Shown here piece after piece: positions 7,357 to 38,711 of a DNA stretch of 53,059 nt (positions are counted from its first letter, which is position 1; every line of letters begins with the position of its first letter). The notes beneath the pieces are model-generated. The model searched no databases and had not been told where the DNA came from. It saw nothing but the letters and a program-made list of their open reading frames with translations. The translations under genes were made by a program, and so were the position numbers. Source of the stretch: an uncultured Bacteroidota bacterium (GTDB lineage: Bacteria; Bacteroidota; Bacteroidia; UKL13-3); NCBI GenBank assembly GCA_903910445.1, contig CAIVZR010000045.1, positions 1 to 53,059 of the forward strand. Reading direction: 5' to 3'.

Positions 7357-8859
7357 ATGAACAATTCTGAATATACTTTAGAGCAAATCCAGTCATTTGA
7401 AGGCAAGTACCCAAAACAATTATGGTATTTGTTTTTAACGGAAATGTGGGAACGATTTTGTTTCTATGGAATGCGTGGGGTACTCACCATTTTCATGGCC
7501 GACCAGGTACTCGGACTGGCATTATCTGATAAGGATGCCAATCTTAAATATGGCGCTATTCAAGCCTTTGTATATGCTTTTACTTTTATCGGCGGCATCT
7601 TCGCCGATAAAATTTTAGGATTTAAGAAGTCGCTCTTCTTCGGTGGATTGGTCATGATTTCTGGCAATATTTTGATTGCTCTAGCACCTCAGAATTTTTT
7701 CTATTTAGGAATTACACTTTCAATTATTGGTACTGGTTTCTTCAAACCCAATATCTCTTCTATGGTAGGTGCCTTGTATAAGGAAGGCGATCCGCGCAGA
7801 GATGCAGGCTTCGGACTCTTCTATTCAGGAATAAATATTGGCGCTTTATTGGGAGGTTTCGTTTGTGTGTACTTAGGTACTAACCCTAATTATGGCTGGA
7901 GCTATGCCTTCTTATCGGCTGCCTTCGTCATGATTATTGGCCTAGTAACTTTTGTTTTCACACGCAAATCATTAGGGCCAATTGGTAATTCGCCTATTTT
8001 AGAGGTGCCTAAAAACACCCGACTTACTCGTGAAATTTTGGTATATGGTGGTGCATTGCTTACCATTCCGCTTATTTTCATCATGATAAAAAACACGGAG
8101 TATACCGACTATTTCATGTATACCATTGGCCCTTTGGCATTGGTTTATTTTGTGTACGAGACACTCAAAGAAAAAGAAAAAACGGCAAGAAATAAACTAT
8201 GGGCTGCCATGGTATTTATCATTTTCTCTATTGCATTCTGGGCTTTCTTCGAACAAAGTGGAGGCTCCTTAGCCTTGTTTGCAAAGAATAATCTACACTC
8301 CAGTTTACTTGGATTTGATATCAATCCTAACATTGTAAACAATACATCTAACTCACTTTTTGTAATCATCTTCAGCCCAATACTGGGTTTGGTTTGGCTG
8401 GGTATGGCTAAACGAAAGATTGAGCCCAATACTGTGATTAAATTTGGGGTAGGATTCTTGTTTTTGGCCTTGGCATTTTATGTATTTTATTATACTCGCT
8501 TTTTTGCCGATGCCGAAGGCTTAACTTCATTAAATATTTTCACACTCGCTTATCTTATCATCACGTTTGCTGAATTGGCGTTATCGCCCATTGGCTTATC
8601 CATCATGACTAAATTATCTCCTCAACGTCTTTCAGGAATGATGATGGGATTATGGTTCTTAGCGAGTGCTTACGGACAGTATGCTGCCGGATTATTAGGT
8701 GCAGGAATGTCGAGCCCCGATGAAAATGCTTCACAAGTTACAAAGCTTCAACTTTATACAGAAGGATACCAACAACTCGCCATATATGCTTTAATAGCTG
8801 GCGTACTTCTTATTGCCATTTCACCAATTGTTCGGAAACTCATGCACGAGGTAAAATAA
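7357..8859 (+). CDS. POT-family proton-coupled peptide transporter (second copy)
   Basis: A 500-residue paralogue of the preceding transporter, with the same landmarks: TEMWERFCFYGMR (E-x-x-E-R), GIFADKILGFKKS, GTGFFKPNISSMVG and FYSGINIGALLGGF. The sequences differ throughout the middle and C terminus, so this is an old duplication and not a recent one. The two copies probably differ in substrate or in regulation, since a terminator lies between them. A near-consensus TATTATTG lies four bases before the ATG, which would give this gene its own promoter and a minimal leader. Confidence 0.95.
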   Translation: MNNSEYTLEQIQSFEGKYPKQLWYLFLTEMWERFCFYGMRGVLTIFMADQVLGLALSDKDANLKYGAIQAFVYAFTFIGGIFADKILGFKKSLFFGGLVMISGNILIALAPQNFFYLGITLSIIGTGFFKPNISSMVGALYKEGDPRRDAGFGLFYSGINIGALLGGFVCVYLGTNPNYGWSYAFLSAAFVMIIGLVTFVFTRKSLGPIGNSPILEVPKNTRLTREILVYGGALLTIPLIFIMIKNTEYTDYFMYTIGPLALVYFVYETLKEKEKTARNKLWAAMVFIIFSIAFWAFFEQSGGSLALFAKNNLHSSLLGFDINPNIVNNTSNSLFVIIFSPILGLVWLGMAKRKIEPNTVIKFGVGFLFLALAFYVFYYTRFFADAEGLTSLNIFTLAYLIITFAELALSPIGLSIMTKLSPQRLSGMMMGLWFLASAYGQYAAGLLGAGMSSPDENASQVTKLQLYTEGYQQLAIYALIAGVLLIAISPIVRKLMHEVK

Positions 8860-14297: not shown

Positions 14298-14645
14298 CTA
14301 TTTTTCAGGAGCACCACCATCAATCCAGCATTTTATCTTTTTACGATCTTCTAAGGAGAGGGAACTATTCTTAGGCATATCCTTGGTATACAAAACTCTT
14401 TGAGCCAAGGTGCCATTTTTCACCCTAGCAAAAATCCCTGCATAGGTAGTATAGTTTCCATTTGGAGAACCTGCATTATGGCAGCCTGAACTGAGGCAAT
14501 GAGCATCGATAATTACTTTTATCGTGGAGTCATAGGTAACAAGCGTGGTGCTACAGTCCAACCCCTTATACTCGTCCTTCTTGCAACAGAACAGGCTGCA
14601 AATAATGATGGTAATAACAATGATTATTTTAGAAACAGTTTGCAC
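14298..14645 (-). CDS. Small cytochrome c-like lipoprotein with CX4CH motif
   Basis: A 115-residue exported lipoprotein (hydrophobic N terminus, lipobox SLFC/C at Cys20-21). It carries Cys50-x4-Cys55-His56, a spaced variant of the CXXCH haem-attachment site, and Met90 in KDMPKNSS, positioned like the distal haem ligand of small class I cytochromes; the C-terminal EDRKKIKCWIDGGAP helix also fits that fold. The start codon is GTG, placed directly after the TAA of the upstream lipoprotein gene. It is the last gene of a four-gene cluster. If haem does not attach, the cysteines could bind metal. Confidence 0.72.
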   Translation of the reverse strand: MQTVSKIIIVITIIICSLFCCKKDEYKGLDCSTTLVTYDSTIKVIIDAHCLSSGCHNAGSPNGNYTTYAGIFARVKNGTLAQRVLYTKDMPKNSSLSLEDRKKIKCWIDGGAPEK

Positions 14646-15041
14646 TTAGTTGTTAGTTTGTACATCAAATTCTTTAATTTCTTTACGTTCACTCCAACCG
14701 ATTGTGGCAGCAACACCTCCTTTTACCGCAACCATGGCAGTACTATCAAACGCAACAGCATATAAATAGTAATTCCCAGGACGCAATTCTTCAACATGAA
14801 CATGGTTATCATCAAGCTCTCCCGAAACTTTCAAGTCGTAATTGGTTGTAGGGTTAGATGGTGCAGTAGTGGCATCAAACTTCACATACAGGGTTGTGGT
14901 ACCAACAATAGGAGTGGTGCCATGATAGATGAGTGCATGGATAGTAGCTTTACCTCCAACATCATTTTTTTTGCAAGCTTGAAATGAGAATGCGAGGGTA
15001 AATAATATTATAATTAAAGTCGACTTTTTAATAGATTGCAT
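14646..15041 (-). CDS. Small lipoprotein of unknown function
   Basis: A 131-residue lipoprotein: MQSIKKST start, hydrophobic stretch, lipobox FSFQAC with Cys23. The mature part resembles a beta-sandwich (KATIHALIYHGTTPIVG, a TTTLYVKFDA strand, and a LRPGNYYLYAVAFDS segment like carboxypeptidase-regulatory or transthyretin-like folds), and it has an HVHVEEL patch with two histidines. The function is unknown. It lies 20 bases after the Met-rich protein gene and abuts the cytochrome-like gene, so co-translation is likely. Confidence 0.72.
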   Translation of the reverse strand: MQSIKKSTLIIILFTLAFSFQACKKNDVGGKATIHALIYHGTTPIVGTTTLYVKFDATTAPSNPTTNYDLKVSGELDDNHVHVEELRPGNYYLYAVAFDSTAMVAVKGGVAATIGWSERKEIKEFDVQTNN

Positions 15042-15061
15042 AATTTGAAATTTTTAATTGT

Positions 15062-16102
15062 TTAAAAAAAATAAGATAAATCTGTGTTGAGATAGTTTTT
15101 AATTGTCATTTGTTTGCCATTTAAGTTTTGGTAAAATGGAATACCATATTCAACTCTAATCCGAAAAGGATGCAATAGTACAATCGTAGAACGATAAGAG
15201 GCACCTATAAATACATTAAGACGTGTACCACCATAATTAATTGAATTTGCTGTGATATCACTTGGGTTATTTAAAAGGATATTCATTCCTTTTATGTTAG
15301 TTGTATGAACCCAATTCACCCGCAAAGAGCTACTCACACCTTCTGTCCATTGATATGCACTCCAAACACAACTTTCAAATTCATTACCAAGCCGATAACC
15401 CAAGGTATTATACCCATTTCGAATATTGGCATTTAGTAATAATCCTATACTTAGTCTGGAGGTCTGATAATTACAATGTAACCCTAAAATCATGTCGTAG
15501 GTGCCTGAGCCAAGTTGCATAGAATAAGGCATTACCTGTTTCGGATACATCGTACTTTGTGCCTCTCCCAACTGACGTATTGAACCTGTAGGCAAACTCA
15601 TCCCCACCGTTGAAATCAAATGAATTTCAGAAGATTTGAAAGTTGAAATCATAAATTGAACTTTCGTATCACTCATGCCGCTGGTGTTCATTCCATGAGT
15701 ATGTATTTTATTACCCATCTTCATTTGCATTTCCATATAGCGAGTATCATATCCTAACATTAGCATCCCCGTAATTTTATCGGTAATTCCCCCCATCAAC
15801 ATGAGCATATACATATTCATATTCATGATTGTTGGTTCGGATGTATATTGTTGCAGTATTTCACCTGAAGCTAATTTTTGGCTACCATTCCTAATACCTA
15901 CCATCGACATATTCATATATTGGCCGGTAATCATCCATTCATTCCTCTTATGTATGTGACCGCTTAATACACCAATGGGTGTTAAGTCGTGGTCACAATC
16001 GCATGCTGAATTGCATACGAGGGTATCTGTTTTTTGTGCAGATACTTGAAGTACAATCAGAAATAAATGAATGAAAATAATTTTGAATAAATTAATTTTC
16101 AT
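15062..16102 (-). CDS. Met/His-rich outer-membrane-like protein, possibly metal-linked
   Basis: A 346-residue exported protein with a signal peptide (cleavage near Ala22-Gln23). The mature N terminus carries a CNSACDCDHD cluster and then GHIHKRNEWMITGQYMNMSM. Further Met-rich strands follow (MNMNMYMLMLM, MEMQMKM, HTHGMNTSGM). The later part alternates like beta-barrel strands and ends in an aromatic residue (SYFF), as outer-membrane barrels do. Met-rich barrels with a GEWM-like opening occur near copper genes in Bacteroidota, from memory of such loci, so a copper or silver role is inferred, not shown. It is third from the end of the minus-strand cluster. Confidence 0.75.
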   Translation of the reverse strand: MKINLFKIIFIHLFLIVLQVSAQKTDTLVCNSACDCDHDLTPIGVLSGHIHKRNEWMITGQYMNMSMVGIRNGSQKLASGEILQQYTSEPTIMNMNMYMLMLMGGITDKITGMLMLGYDTRYMEMQMKMGNKIHTHGMNTSGMSDTKVQFMISTFKSSEIHLISTVGMSLPTGSIRQLGEAQSTMYPKQVMPYSMQLGSGTYDMILGLHCNYQTSRLSIGLLLNANIRNGYNTLGYRLGNEFESCVWSAYQWTEGVSSSLRVNWVHTTNIKGMNILLNNPSDITANSINYGGTRLNVFIGASYRSTIVLLHPFRIRVEYGIPFYQNLNGKQMTIKNYLNTDLSYFF

Positions 16103-16190
16103 TCGATAAAATAATTATGAAATACAAAAGAATGAATGTCACAAAAGCAACCCATTCGAAGGCGTATTTTCGAACCTTAATTTGAAAATT

Positions 16191-16568
16191 TTAACCGATT
16201 AAGTCAGAAAAAGGAGGGGGATGAAATATAAAAGAAGGATTGGAAACTTCATTCTTATTCAAATAACTAAAATGAAGGATATTTATATTTCCAAAACCTT
16301 GAAATTGAAATGGAATAGAGATTTCAAAATAATACGGAACTTCCAGTTGCTTTATTTCCGGAATTGATGAGGCGGGTGAAGCAATTGATTTCATTTCCTT
16401 GGCCAGATAGCATTTCCCATGGCAGGTTGAGTTCTTCACATTCTTGTTTACACACTCCACCTTGGCGATAGTTTCTTCTTGTAAATAAAATGCCATCAAT
16501 AGTGTAACTATCGCCATATTCTGAAATATAACCAACACTAAAAAGGTATATGCAATAGTTTTTTTCAA
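16191..16568 (-). CDS. Small membrane protein with CX9CHGKC motif
   Basis: A 125-residue protein with an N-terminal hydrophobic helix (about 5-29) that is either a membrane anchor or an uncleaved signal, then Cys39, Cys49-His50 and Cys53 in NSTCHGKCYLAKEM. Similar small proteins with a GKCYL motif occur in Bacteroidota near metal or TonB-linked genes, but I know of no assigned function. The only credible start is TTG at 16566-16568: upstream in-frame codons hold no ATG before a stop. It heads the cluster of four envelope genes, 88 bases before the Met-rich protein gene. Confidence 0.65.
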   Translation of the reverse strand: MKKTIAYTFLVLVIFQNMAIVTLLMAFYLQEETIAKVECVNKNVKNSTCHGKCYLAKEMKSIASPASSIPEIKQLEVPYYFEISIPFQFQGFGNINILHFSYLNKNEVSNPSFIFHPPPFSDLIG

Positions 16569-16574
16569 ATGATC

Positions 16575-16597
16575 ATGGAGAATACTAGCATCTCCAT
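16575..16597. promoter_or_regulatory. Inverted repeat in the leader of the Met-rich cluster
   Basis: ATGGAGA (16575-16581) and TCTCCAT (16591-16597) form a perfect 7-bp inverted repeat with a nine-base centre. It lies between the -7-like element and the TTG start of the first cluster gene. It could be an operator for a dimeric repressor or a hairpin near the ribosome-binding site. Confidence 0.45.
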
Positions 16598-16608
16598 TTA
16601 TAACAATT

Positions 16609-16616
16609 CAAAGATA
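16609..16616 (-). promoter_or_regulatory. TAnnTTTG element upstream of the Met-rich cluster
   Basis: TATCTTTG on the minus strand, 40 bases before the TTG start of the first cluster gene. No TTG -33 element is found at the usual distance. Confidence 0.45.
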
Positions 16617-16709
16617 TCAATCCTGGATAGATTTTGAAGCTGTTTTTTATCACCCAAATTAATGGGCAAAAAAATCAATTTTTCATACCTTCGTTTTAAG
16701 AATATTTTA

Positions 16710-36736: not shown

Positions 36737-38671
36737 TTATTTTATTTGAAATTGGGAATACATTGGCAATAAAACAGGGTTCTTTGGGGCTATTTTATAC
36801 AATCGTTTCAAACAAAGAAGAAATTCCTTTCTATTGCCTTGTGCATTGTAAATATCCAAACAATTAATCAAGGCATTCTCCATATCTGGATCAAGCTGCA
36901 AGGCTCGTTGATAATAGCTTAGTGCTTTATTCAAATCGCCTTGTCCTTTATTGCAAATGATAAGGCCTAAGCTATTCCATGCTTCTGGATATTTAGGGTT
37001 GAGATATAATATTTGCTCGAATATTTTTTGCGCCTCCACAATTTTACCCAAATGATATTTTACATTGCCTTGTTTTAATAGGAAAGCGAGCTGCTTAGGT
37101 TTAAGTGAAACGGTTTGGTCAATCCATGATTCAGCTTCCGCATATTTTCCCTGTTTCATATAGGCCTCCCCTACTCGGTAACTTGTCCAGGAATCGCGGA
37201 GCAGCTCTCGATTCAATTTCTGAGAAAAGGAAATTAAATTGGTATAATCCTCTATGAGGTAATAGTAGTGAATCCAAAGTGCATTTTCGTTTGGACATGA
37301 TTGCAAAAAATAAAATGCCGAGTCTAAACAAAGTGATTGCTTGGAATCAAATTTCTCAAAATAGTTCAAATAGGCTTCTGCTTTAGAAACTGCGGTGGGT
37401 TGGCTATTATTGATGCAGGATATACCCGCAAATTTTTGAATTCCTTCAATTTGTTTTTGGGTAATAGGCTTTCTAATATAATGATCGTGAACCGTTACGT
37501 GGGGGATATCGAGGGTGCCATTTTGTGGCATATGGCATTTTACGCAGTCATTATTTGCTTTTGACAATTCGGTTGGAGGAGCAGTACACTTCTTTTCTTG
37601 ATGGCATTTAATACAGGCATTATTAAAAATTTCTTTCCCAGTTACCTTTACACTTACATGCGGGTTATGACAGGTGATACAGGTAAGTTTCAATCCGTTG
37701 CTTCCTTGGACGTCGAGTGTATTGCTCTTCAAAAAACAGGCACTCTTTTGAAGTCTTTCGGCATGAGAAGCCATGATAAATTTCGAATCATCGCCGGTAA
37801 AACGAGGCATATATACATCTTCAATAGTGCTCAGCTTCATGCCAGGGCGAAAATCGGCAAACGATTTACCTTCTTGCAATACGGCATTGCCTTGTAAGTG
37901 GCATCTTTGACAAACATCAATTTGCAGCGCCCATGGTAGTTTTGCAGGGTTCACAATGGTATAATCAATATCTTTTTTGATATCTACCATATTCCCTTTT
38001 TGTTTTTCCTGAACATGCATACTCCCTGGGCCGTGACACCTTTCGCAACTGAGTCCAAGCTCAACTTTATCATATTTATTTAAGCTTTGATCATCAAAAA
38101 CAGGAAGCGAGTTATGGCACGACATACATTCGGGTTCAATGGCGCGACCAAATCTTGAATTATGCCCACCTTCAAAGCCGGGAGGCAAATTCCATTGGCC
38201 CATTTGGGTATAATAAGTTAATGGTGCCTGATATAAAAATCCATTGATATCAAAAATATGAGAGTTGGTATGTTGTCCGCTACCCACGATATATTTAATA
38301 TTCTCAATTCGGCGATGAATCGTGTCCTTTCCAAGCAGGCGGAATTCCATAATTTGCAGGGTATCTCCATTCCATTGTGGGTGATAGTACAAATTAGGTA
38401 AGGTATCGTATACTAAAGTACTGGCATTAAATTTTGCAGATGATTTTTGGTGTGTTGCAAAATCCCACGATTTACCCATTCCTGTTTCCGAAAAGGTATT
38501 GTAAATATCCATATGGCAGCCTTTGCACACTTCCTTCCCAACATAAGTAACAGAAGCCTGATGATTAAGGTATGGCGATTTTTCCGAATCGGATTGGCCA
38601 ATGTGGGAGCAAGAGTAACCGATAATTAAGACAAGGAAAACCAATAAAAAGAGATATGTAATCTTTCGCAT
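36737..38671 (-). CDS. Seven-haem cytochrome c lipoprotein with C-terminal TPRs
   Basis: A 644-residue exported lipoprotein (lipobox IIGYSC, Cys21). Seven CXXCH haem sites are visible: CKGCH 49-53, CMSCH 182-186, CERCH 209-213, CQRCH 254-258, CITCH 331-335, CIKCH 353-357 and CVKCH 376-380, in a cytochrome c554/DmsE-like arrangement. From about 480 to the end are TPR repeats, including WNSLGLIICNKGQ and ALSYYQRALQLDPDMENAL. It probably passes electrons in the periplasm or at the outer membrane; donor and acceptor are unknown. The ATG at 38671 is preferred over an upstream TTG. A small membrane protein gene lies 40 bases upstream on the same strand. Confidence 0.92.
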   Translation of the reverse strand: MRKITYLFLLVFLVLIIGYSCSHIGQSDSEKSPYLNHQASVTYVGKEVCKGCHMDIYNTFSETGMGKSWDFATHQKSSAKFNASTLVYDTLPNLYYHPQWNGDTLQIMEFRLLGKDTIHRRIENIKYIVGSGQHTNSHIFDINGFLYQAPLTYYTQMGQWNLPPGFEGGHNSRFGRAIEPECMSCHNSLPVFDDQSLNKYDKVELGLSCERCHGPGSMHVQEKQKGNMVDIKKDIDYTIVNPAKLPWALQIDVCQRCHLQGNAVLQEGKSFADFRPGMKLSTIEDVYMPRFTGDDSKFIMASHAERLQKSACFLKSNTLDVQGSNGLKLTCITCHNPHVSVKVTGKEIFNNACIKCHQEKKCTAPPTELSKANNDCVKCHMPQNGTLDIPHVTVHDHYIRKPITQKQIEGIQKFAGISCINNSQPTAVSKAEAYLNYFEKFDSKQSLCLDSAFYFLQSCPNENALWIHYYYLIEDYTNLISFSQKLNRELLRDSWTSYRVGEAYMKQGKYAEAESWIDQTVSLKPKQLAFLLKQGNVKYHLGKIVEAQKIFEQILYLNPKYPEAWNSLGLIICNKGQGDLNKALSYYQRALQLDPDMENALINCLDIYNAQGNRKEFLLCLKRLYKIAPKNPVLLPMYSQFQIK

Positions 38672-38711
38672 GAAGAACACAAAGAAAAGCAAATTTCTGT
38701 TGAAAATTAAG

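Follow-up and report, generated by a model that had tools for sequence, protein, structure and literature searches.

A probable copper operon type of Bacteroidota with a putative leader peptide ahead of a methionine-rich outer-membrane channel

Introduction

The closest described counterparts of the locus treated here, four adjacent minus-strand open reading frames (ORFs) at 14298–16568 of contig CAIVZR010000045.1 from an uncultured Bacteroidota bacterium (GTDB lineage UKL13-3; assembly GCA_903910445.1), are copper-related operons that open with a short protein. Throughout, 'the window' denotes the whole analysed stretch of 53,059 nucleotides (nt). CutF of Rhodobacter capsulatus is a short exported protein with a CxxxC motif and a Pro-rich C-terminus that heads a copper operon, a short gap ahead of a multicopper oxidase gene whose ribosome-binding site is shielded by a stem-loop (PMC9973294). 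The same paper reports CutF-like proteins to be common in Bacteroidota (40% of its list after normalisation and 19% otherwise), so the leader family described below may already stand in its supplementary list D. CruR of Bordetella pertussis is likewise encoded by a copper-related upstream ORF (uORF), with a Cys motif kept at a fixed distance from a C-terminal PP; copper lowers expression, and operons of this type include PCuAC, SCO and MbnPH-like genes (PMC9426467), although the string 'Bacteroid-' is absent from the paper's main text. A survey of arrest peptides (PMC10987492) names CruR and CutF once, and covers other proline-ending uORFs of Bacteroidota, which lie in clusters linked to secretion machinery. 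Two further comparisons concern the COG4313 channel Pput2725 (4rl8; PMC4493636), in whose paper the word 'copper' does not occur, and the MbnP/MbnH pairs (PF20243, CCP_MauG; PMC3621798). In the passages of the literature examined we found no link between such a barrel and CutF- or CruR-type leaders, nor did a whole-word search of the papers covered find one that mentions both MbnP and Bacteroidetes.

The first gene of the window cluster, mem125, shares with CutF and CruR a Cys motif and a C-terminal PP, and with CutF the short gap to the next gene; here that gene encodes an outer-membrane β-barrel instead of a multicopper oxidase, and two lipoprotein genes, lipo131 and cyt115, follow. We consider it likely that the cluster represents a copper operon type widespread in Bacteroidota, in which the first ORF is a copper-sensing leader that sets the output of a Met-rich Cu(I) channel and of two lipoproteins, one small and one of monohaem c-type. 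Loci of this sort are found repeatedly in Bacteroidota and are built from parts of known kinds, and the 'undescribed system' of a first-pass annotation made from the sequence alone was thus too strong a term.

Results

mem125 has a hydrophobic N-terminus, three Cys arranged as C39-x9-C49-xxx-C53, with C49-HGK-C53 as its CxxxC motif, and a C-terminal FHPPP followed by six residues. In an alignment of 22 members (A5), C39, C49, G51, C53, P117 and P118 were invariant, mean column identity was 30%, and beyond the Cys motif and the final PP the sequence varies widely. The first-pass annotation had pointed to Cys39, Cys49-His50 and Cys53 as possible metal ligands; its three Cys stand, its His50 is not invariant. 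The 22 members matched no sensible Pfam or NCBIfam family, and we define the leader family as the 51 ORFs in the fetched loci that their profile matched. A CxxxC motif together with PP in the last 15 residues occurred in 50 of these 51, compared with 4 of 407 control small ORFs from the same loci (CxxxC in 19, C-terminal PP in 25). In these 50 relatives CxxxC and PP are separated by 63–70 residues (median 66, standard deviation 1.8; 63 in the window), the linkers average 24.6% identity, and C-x9-C-x3-C is retained in 45. As required of CutF-like proteins, the window leader is no longer than 150 amino acids (aa) (125 aa, and 50 of the 51 family matches are also within this length), has CxxxC and a PP no more than 15 residues from the C-terminus, and lies less than 1000 nt (88 nt) ahead of another gene of its strand (PMC9973294). 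Such proteins are also required to have a Sec signal peptide cut by signal peptidase I, and on this point the hydrophobic N-terminus is what the sequence offers. By analogy with CutF and CruR, mem125 is most likely a copper-sensing leader peptide and not a membrane metal-binding component.

Small ORFs ending in PP are also common ahead of barrel genes that lack a leader of this family. Among 71 barrel loci with at least 700 nt of upstream sequence, 57 have a small same-strand ORF no more than 350 nt upstream; 50 of the 57 are PP-ending, 30 being leader-family members and 20 not (where several ORFs were available, the PP-ending one was picked). When a single rule was applied to both groups of a non-redundant set, a PP-ending small ORF preceded 47 of 66 barrel genes versus 21 of 430 other genes, some of which themselves lie behind family leaders (Fisher p 6.6e-34); the relatives are not independent, and this value, like the z values below, therefore overstates certainty. 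Of the 20 non-family ORFs, 14 terminate in RAPP or RGPP, and five of the ten scanned with Pfam match DUF2946, four of them over the cut-off; Pro-Pro is common to the 14 that were aligned, and some of those with other ends than RAPP or RGPP (L152, L181) have a chance-like appearance. In loci from records named as other phyla (L134–L191), several of the small ORFs of RAPP/RGPP type that precede Met-array barrels have a Cys motif 44–48 residues before PP. At three loci (L184, L190, L033) a small lipoprotein-like ORF, which we take to resemble NosL, occupies the leader position.

These data bear on the view that all four proteins take a functional part in metal handling, with mem125 as a membrane-bound metal binder and the CX4CH protein transferring electrons. 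CxxxC is a plausible copper site with its three Cys invariant, and the copper context of the relatives (below) is real, but mem125 is poorly conserved outside its motifs while the distance between them is kept, and in other phyla the same barrel stands behind PP-ending small ORFs that cannot be aligned with the leader family. Since these replacement ORFs share only the metal-type motif and the terminal PP, a structural partner is unlikely, and so, in our judgement, is this alternative as a whole; a leader peptide explains mem125 better than the metal-handling membrane protein first proposed.

The AlphaFold2 model of the 346-aa barrel protein (predicted local distance difference test, pLDDT, 92.1) contains 12 long strand elements, the last perhaps two. 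Foldseek retrieved FapF (5o67, E 1.7e-13) and the COG4313 channel (4rl8, E 3.1e-13), the latter with a template-modelling (TM) score of 0.56 when normalised to query length and 0.71 when normalised to target length; by sequence profile the match to 4rl8 is weak (E 0.033). Of the 76 barrels aligned, 44 matched PF13557 (E 0.01 or better), the window protein not being among them. This confident model predicts a 12-stranded outer-membrane channel of the COG4313/PF13557-like kind.

Two alignments revealed a conserved Met array. A1 comprised 11 of the 20 loci from a motif-free protein search, window included (L030, L035, L036, L038, L039 and the weak L040–L044 were excluded), and A2 comprised 76 barrels, namely the window and 75 of the 80 best loci of the contig scan described below (excluding L140, which is cut, and the longer L184, L188, L189 and L190). 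Twelve Met over three strands are invariant in A1, and MxMxMxM occurs in 14 of the 20 motif-free relatives. In A2, conservation of Met reaches 92% or more at positions 93, 95, 97, 99, 103, 113, 115 and 123, 87–89% at 57, 63, 65 and 67, and 42% at 101. Conservation at 57, 63, 93, 95, 97 and 99 arises partly by construction, since the patterns used to find the 80 loci include these residues; Met 65, 67, 103, 113, 115, 123 and 195 are in neither search pattern. The conserved Met lie on strand 1 (57, 63, 65, 67), strand 2 (93, 95, 97, 99, 103) and strand 3 (113, 115, 123), all at odd positions. They probably face the barrel lumen, because odd residues form the more polar side of strands 1 (−1.64 vs 0.28) and 3 (−0.54 vs 0.84), on a scale that counts aromatic residues as hydrophobic. 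For strand 2 the means are ambiguous and slightly contrary (0.37 odd, −0.2 even), while its lower half, with Leu/Phe100, Ala/Leu102 and Tyr104 on the even face, agrees with lumen-facing Met. Thus, of the two features of this protein noted at first, the Met runs belong to a conserved array, whereas clusters of at least three Cys before the barrel, such as its CNSACDCDHD, occur in only 28 of the 76. Position 60, Gly in the window, is Tyr in 75 of the 76.

Genome tallies, which count the own genome, were made at E at most 0.001. The barrel is present in 18 of 395 phylum genomes and 6 of 58 relatives (among five genomes of the genus, only in the own genome and G397), the leader family in 76 of 198 phylum genomes, lipo131 in 2 of 198 phylum genomes and 13 of 58 relatives, and the CXnCH cytochrome family in 56 of 58 relatives, often as multiple copies (the own genome has four). 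When genome contigs were scanned, at least 467 stretches encoding barrel relatives were found, and the best 80 were kept; besides Bacteroidota, these include records labelled Proteobacteria, Cyanobacteria, Nitrospira, Planctomycetota and others, names that are uncertain because many are metagenome-assembled genomes. Near relatives, Pfam matches over the cut-off were obtained for MbnP (L026, L027, L099), SCO1-SenC with PCuAC (L028), HMA (L026), the di-haem family CCP_MauG (MbnH-like; L042, L099) and, on the opposite strand, DUF411 (L032), and elsewhere neighbours were assigned by phmmer comparison with these Pfam-named reference proteins. In 42 leader–barrel loci, the next gene within 150 nt encodes MbnP in 24, SCO1 in five, another protein in five and another leader ORF in one, with none in seven, and a small CXnCH cytochrome lies in the same run in 15. 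This count excludes L092–L111, the window and barrels with no family leader within 400 nt (e.g. L038, with a gap of 1216 nt, and L025, whose contig ends inside the leader). The surmise of copper handling at the envelope, already made from the window sequence, is thereby supported by relatives. L099 has in a row MbnP, CCP_MauG, a 349-aa distant barrel relative (BLASTP 2e-14 to the L042 barrel and a weak 4e-4 to the window barrel, in a single comparison), lipo131 and a 487-aa cytochrome-like protein. Outside the window, the own genome has three MbnP genes (G000:C4:129781, G000:C25:96846 and G000:C25:132277; L222–L224), and behind each lies a gene for a protein of ~350 aa that contains two CXXCH motifs and is MbnH-like by place and motif.

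The same evidence bears on whether the barrel carries some other cargo, such as a hydrophobic compound, a chelate or a soft metal like silver, with copper genes adjacent for another reason. COG4313 channels have been linked to hydrophobic uptake (PMC4493636), Met can serve as a plain hydrophobic residue, and of eight plasmid records with barrel relatives the three examined lie near genes for cytochrome c maturation, near feoB or near genes for nitrite reductase. Against such a cargo stand the Met array, in its A1 and MxMxMxM counts, and the presence of MbnP or SCO1 as the next gene in 29 of the 42 leader–barrel loci, and we regard it as improbable. Barrel relatives on Methylocystis plasmids are annotated as 'alpha-amylase' (NZ_AP027143.1, NZ_CP143315.1, NZ_CP107559.1).

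The hints obtained for lipo131 (purple acid phosphatase N domain, fn3) all fell below the cut-off, and its PDB profile matches, mostly to antibody light chain and weak (best E 0.13), were not used. It occupies the position that MbnP holds in 24 of the 42 leader–barrel loci. Its HVHVEE patch, proposed as a ligand site, is present and partially kept, the first His in 10 and the second in 6 of 15. In cyt115 the proposed ligands fared better, with Cys50, Cys55 and His56 invariant in 22 of 22 aligned members and Met90, presumably the sixth haem ligand as in class I cytochromes, a Met in 17. CXnCH is present in all 22, 17 of them having n = 4, four (L132, L146, L148, L157) n = 5 and one (L115:10943) n = 2, and further relatives have CX2CH (L107) or CX3CH (L110); other cytochromes are known to carry haem at CX4CH. 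In the PDB, the family profile matched hydrazine synthase alpha at E 1.4e-4 and cytochrome c6 at E 2.8e-4, and in the match to the hydrazine synthase haem domain (5c2v) CXnCH is aligned with CX2CH; cyt115 has CX4CH in place of CXXCH. PSCyt1 (PF07635) was matched at E 0.01 or better by 9 of the 22 members (21.2 bits against a cut-off of 22 for that of L026), while the window protein had no Pfam match and a sub-cut-off one to the NCBIfam LIC11213 lipoprotein (23.4 of 100 bits). As judged from these sequence matches, cyt115 would be a monohaem c-type cytochrome of PSCyt1-like kind, so that its initial description as cytochrome-like finds support in sequence though none in the fold model (see Discussion).

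Leader–barrel gaps are often folded in the family. For 43 of them, window included and one gap of 1216 nt excluded, the mean folding z was −2.57, with 32 of 43 below −1.5, versus −1.06 and 54 of 159 for other same-strand gaps in the same loci. No Rfam match was found.

Neighbourhoods in the four other genomes of the genus agree in part with a conserved cluster. Barrel, lipo131 and cyt115 genes are together in one (G397) and the two lipoprotein genes in three, whereas in one (G396) leader, lipo131 and cyt115 genes follow one another with no barrel gene between, and G395 lacks barrel and lipo131. Compared with G397 (contig C36, L025), the methyltransferase gene beside the cluster and the next gene are 98.8% and 98.6% identical, cyt115 95.7%, the barrel 86.8% and lipo131 83.6%; synonymous divergence (dS) is 0.45 for the barrel and 0.70 for lipo131, versus about 0.05 in the methyltransferase and next gene. 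The last ~57 leader codons are identical in DNA save one mismatch at the contig end, and gap and barrel diverge, so that the divergent block (about 14550–16180) starts directly after the leader stop codon. Recombination may have brought in a different allele of the barrel–lipo131 block, one of whose edges would be the leader stop; it is not the only such block, as other parts of the contig likewise fall to 84–92% (e.g. 7501–8250). We doubt that lipo131 and cyt115 form a separate pair that leader and barrel precede by chance or recombination: this divergence, and the occurrence within the genus of lipo131–cyt115 with no barrel between (L092, L093), would favour it, but the leader of G396 (L092) still directly precedes lipo131–cyt115 (at 95 nt), and the order barrel–lipo131–cyt115 recurs outside the genus, followed by MbnP and MbnH in L114 (whose contig starts too close to reveal a leader) and with leader and SCO1 further upstream in L128.

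Discussion

In the copper operon that we favour, the CxxxC of the leader would meet copper periplasmically during synthesis and export; copper bound there would alter the time that the ribosome waits at the C-terminal Pro-Pro, and this wait would set the output of the downstream genes. The Met-rich barrel would be a channel for Cu(I), and the monohaem lipoprotein could change the redox state of copper or pass electrons. For this cluster we infer copper binding, ribosome stalling, haem attachment and the direction of transport. Uptake seems to us slightly likelier than efflux, because neighbours in relatives build copper enzymes (SCO1, PCuAC) or are MbnP and MbnH, although CutF-type control would fit copper defence as well.

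Several findings weigh against this interpretation. In the leader, the motifs are 63–70 residues apart, as compared with 45 in CutF (PMC9973294) and, between CXXC and RAPP, also 45 in the DUF2946 protein CruR (PMC9426467), whose spacing is measured to RAPP and ours to PP. None of the 22 leader members matches the Pfam profile of DUF2946 (PF11162), for which reason we liken mem125 to CutF and CruR yet keep it apart from DUF2946, and hhalign did not align the family with DUF2946-like leaders (probability 3.7%). In contrast to the stem-loop of CutF, the gap in the window has no notable fold (z −0.43), so that this signal, frequent in the family, is unsupported at the window locus, and a scan found no terminator-like site. 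In L128 the leader lies three ORFs away from the barrel. As to the barrel, the structure of its COG4313 counterpart was discussed for hydrophobic substrates (PMC4493636), and the three plasmid relatives examined show no clear copper locus. The window has Tyr98 where 74 of 76 barrels have His (L113 being the other exception). Six of the 20 motif-free relatives (L039–L044) lack MxMxMxM, and the array therefore marks a subfamily; one of them, L042, nevertheless has a family leader on one side and MbnP/MbnH on the other, which makes the array dispensable for this locus type. The cyt115 model (pLDDT 75.3) has no clear cytochrome fold, its only structural match being 5c2v at E 3.9. Finally, MbnP, MbnH, SCO1 and PCuAC, which occur near relatives, are all absent from the window cluster.

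A broader proposal, which we put forward tentatively, is that, beside DUF2946 and with no recognisable relation to it, the leader family forms a second class of arrest peptides that sense copper, with a 63–70-residue ruler of its own that would place the Cys motif past the translocon, in the periplasm, when Pro-Pro is reached, and with a frequent customer, the Met-lined Cu(I) channel, that came under such leaders independently in several phyla. The passage of ionic copper across the outer membrane is poorly known, and here a Met-rich channel family present in several phyla often lies directly behind copper-type leaders, those of Bacteroidota having a longer, tightly kept spacing than CutF and CruR. 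If correct, this would assign a role to barrels whose present annotation is 'transporter' or even 'alpha-amylase'.

Gene layout and further observations

The four ORFs (Table 1) run head to tail, encode exported-type products and are separated by 88, 20 and 0 nt, the GTG start of cyt115 abutting the TAA of the preceding gene. Four adjacent genes for exported products, with this TAA-GTG junction, had been described before, and both were seen again; the extent then given, 14298–16620, includes all four and ends 52 nt beyond the first start codon (16568). We take the ORFs to be genes and more than chance, because all have relatives elsewhere, and the cluster is presumably a single transcript. In Pfam and NCBIfam scans none of the four window proteins exceeded a curated cut-off, and their names are therefore drawn from relatives, which do give families.

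Table 1. Position and assignment of features in the window cluster.
Feature	Coordinates	Strand	Basis or remark
mem125 (putative leader ORF, 125 aa)	16191..16568	-	TTG start; ORF and alignment A5
Leader–barrel gap, 88 nt	16103..16190	-	often strongly folded in relatives, not in window
Predicted Met-rich outer-membrane β-barrel, 346 aa, COG4313/PF13557-like channel	15062..16102	-	AlphaFold2, Foldseek
lipo131, lipoprotein, 131 aa	14646..15041	-	family beside CXnCH cytochromes and MbnP/MbnH loci
cyt115, lipoprotein, 115 aa, CX4CH and conserved Met-Pro	14298..14645	-	alignment A3, PDB profile matches

Upstream of the leader, a ten-codon ORF noted by eye (MEMLVFSMII, 16569–16610) has a TGA that overlaps the leader TTG start, a possible coupling that may be chance. 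TAnnTTTG is a promoter word of Bacteroidota type; one copy lies ahead of the leader at 16609–16616, but such words are at chance level in the window (66 vs 72 expected), as are sigma-70-like sites in their frequency, and neither was retained. In G396, beside the leader, lipo131 and cyt115 genes, the other strand at L092:10904–12815 encodes a 371-aa protein with a C-terminal heavy-metal binding domain (HMBD) and a 261-aa protein. Elsewhere in the window, outside the cluster, 36737–38692 encodes a 651-aa protein with several CxxCH motifs.

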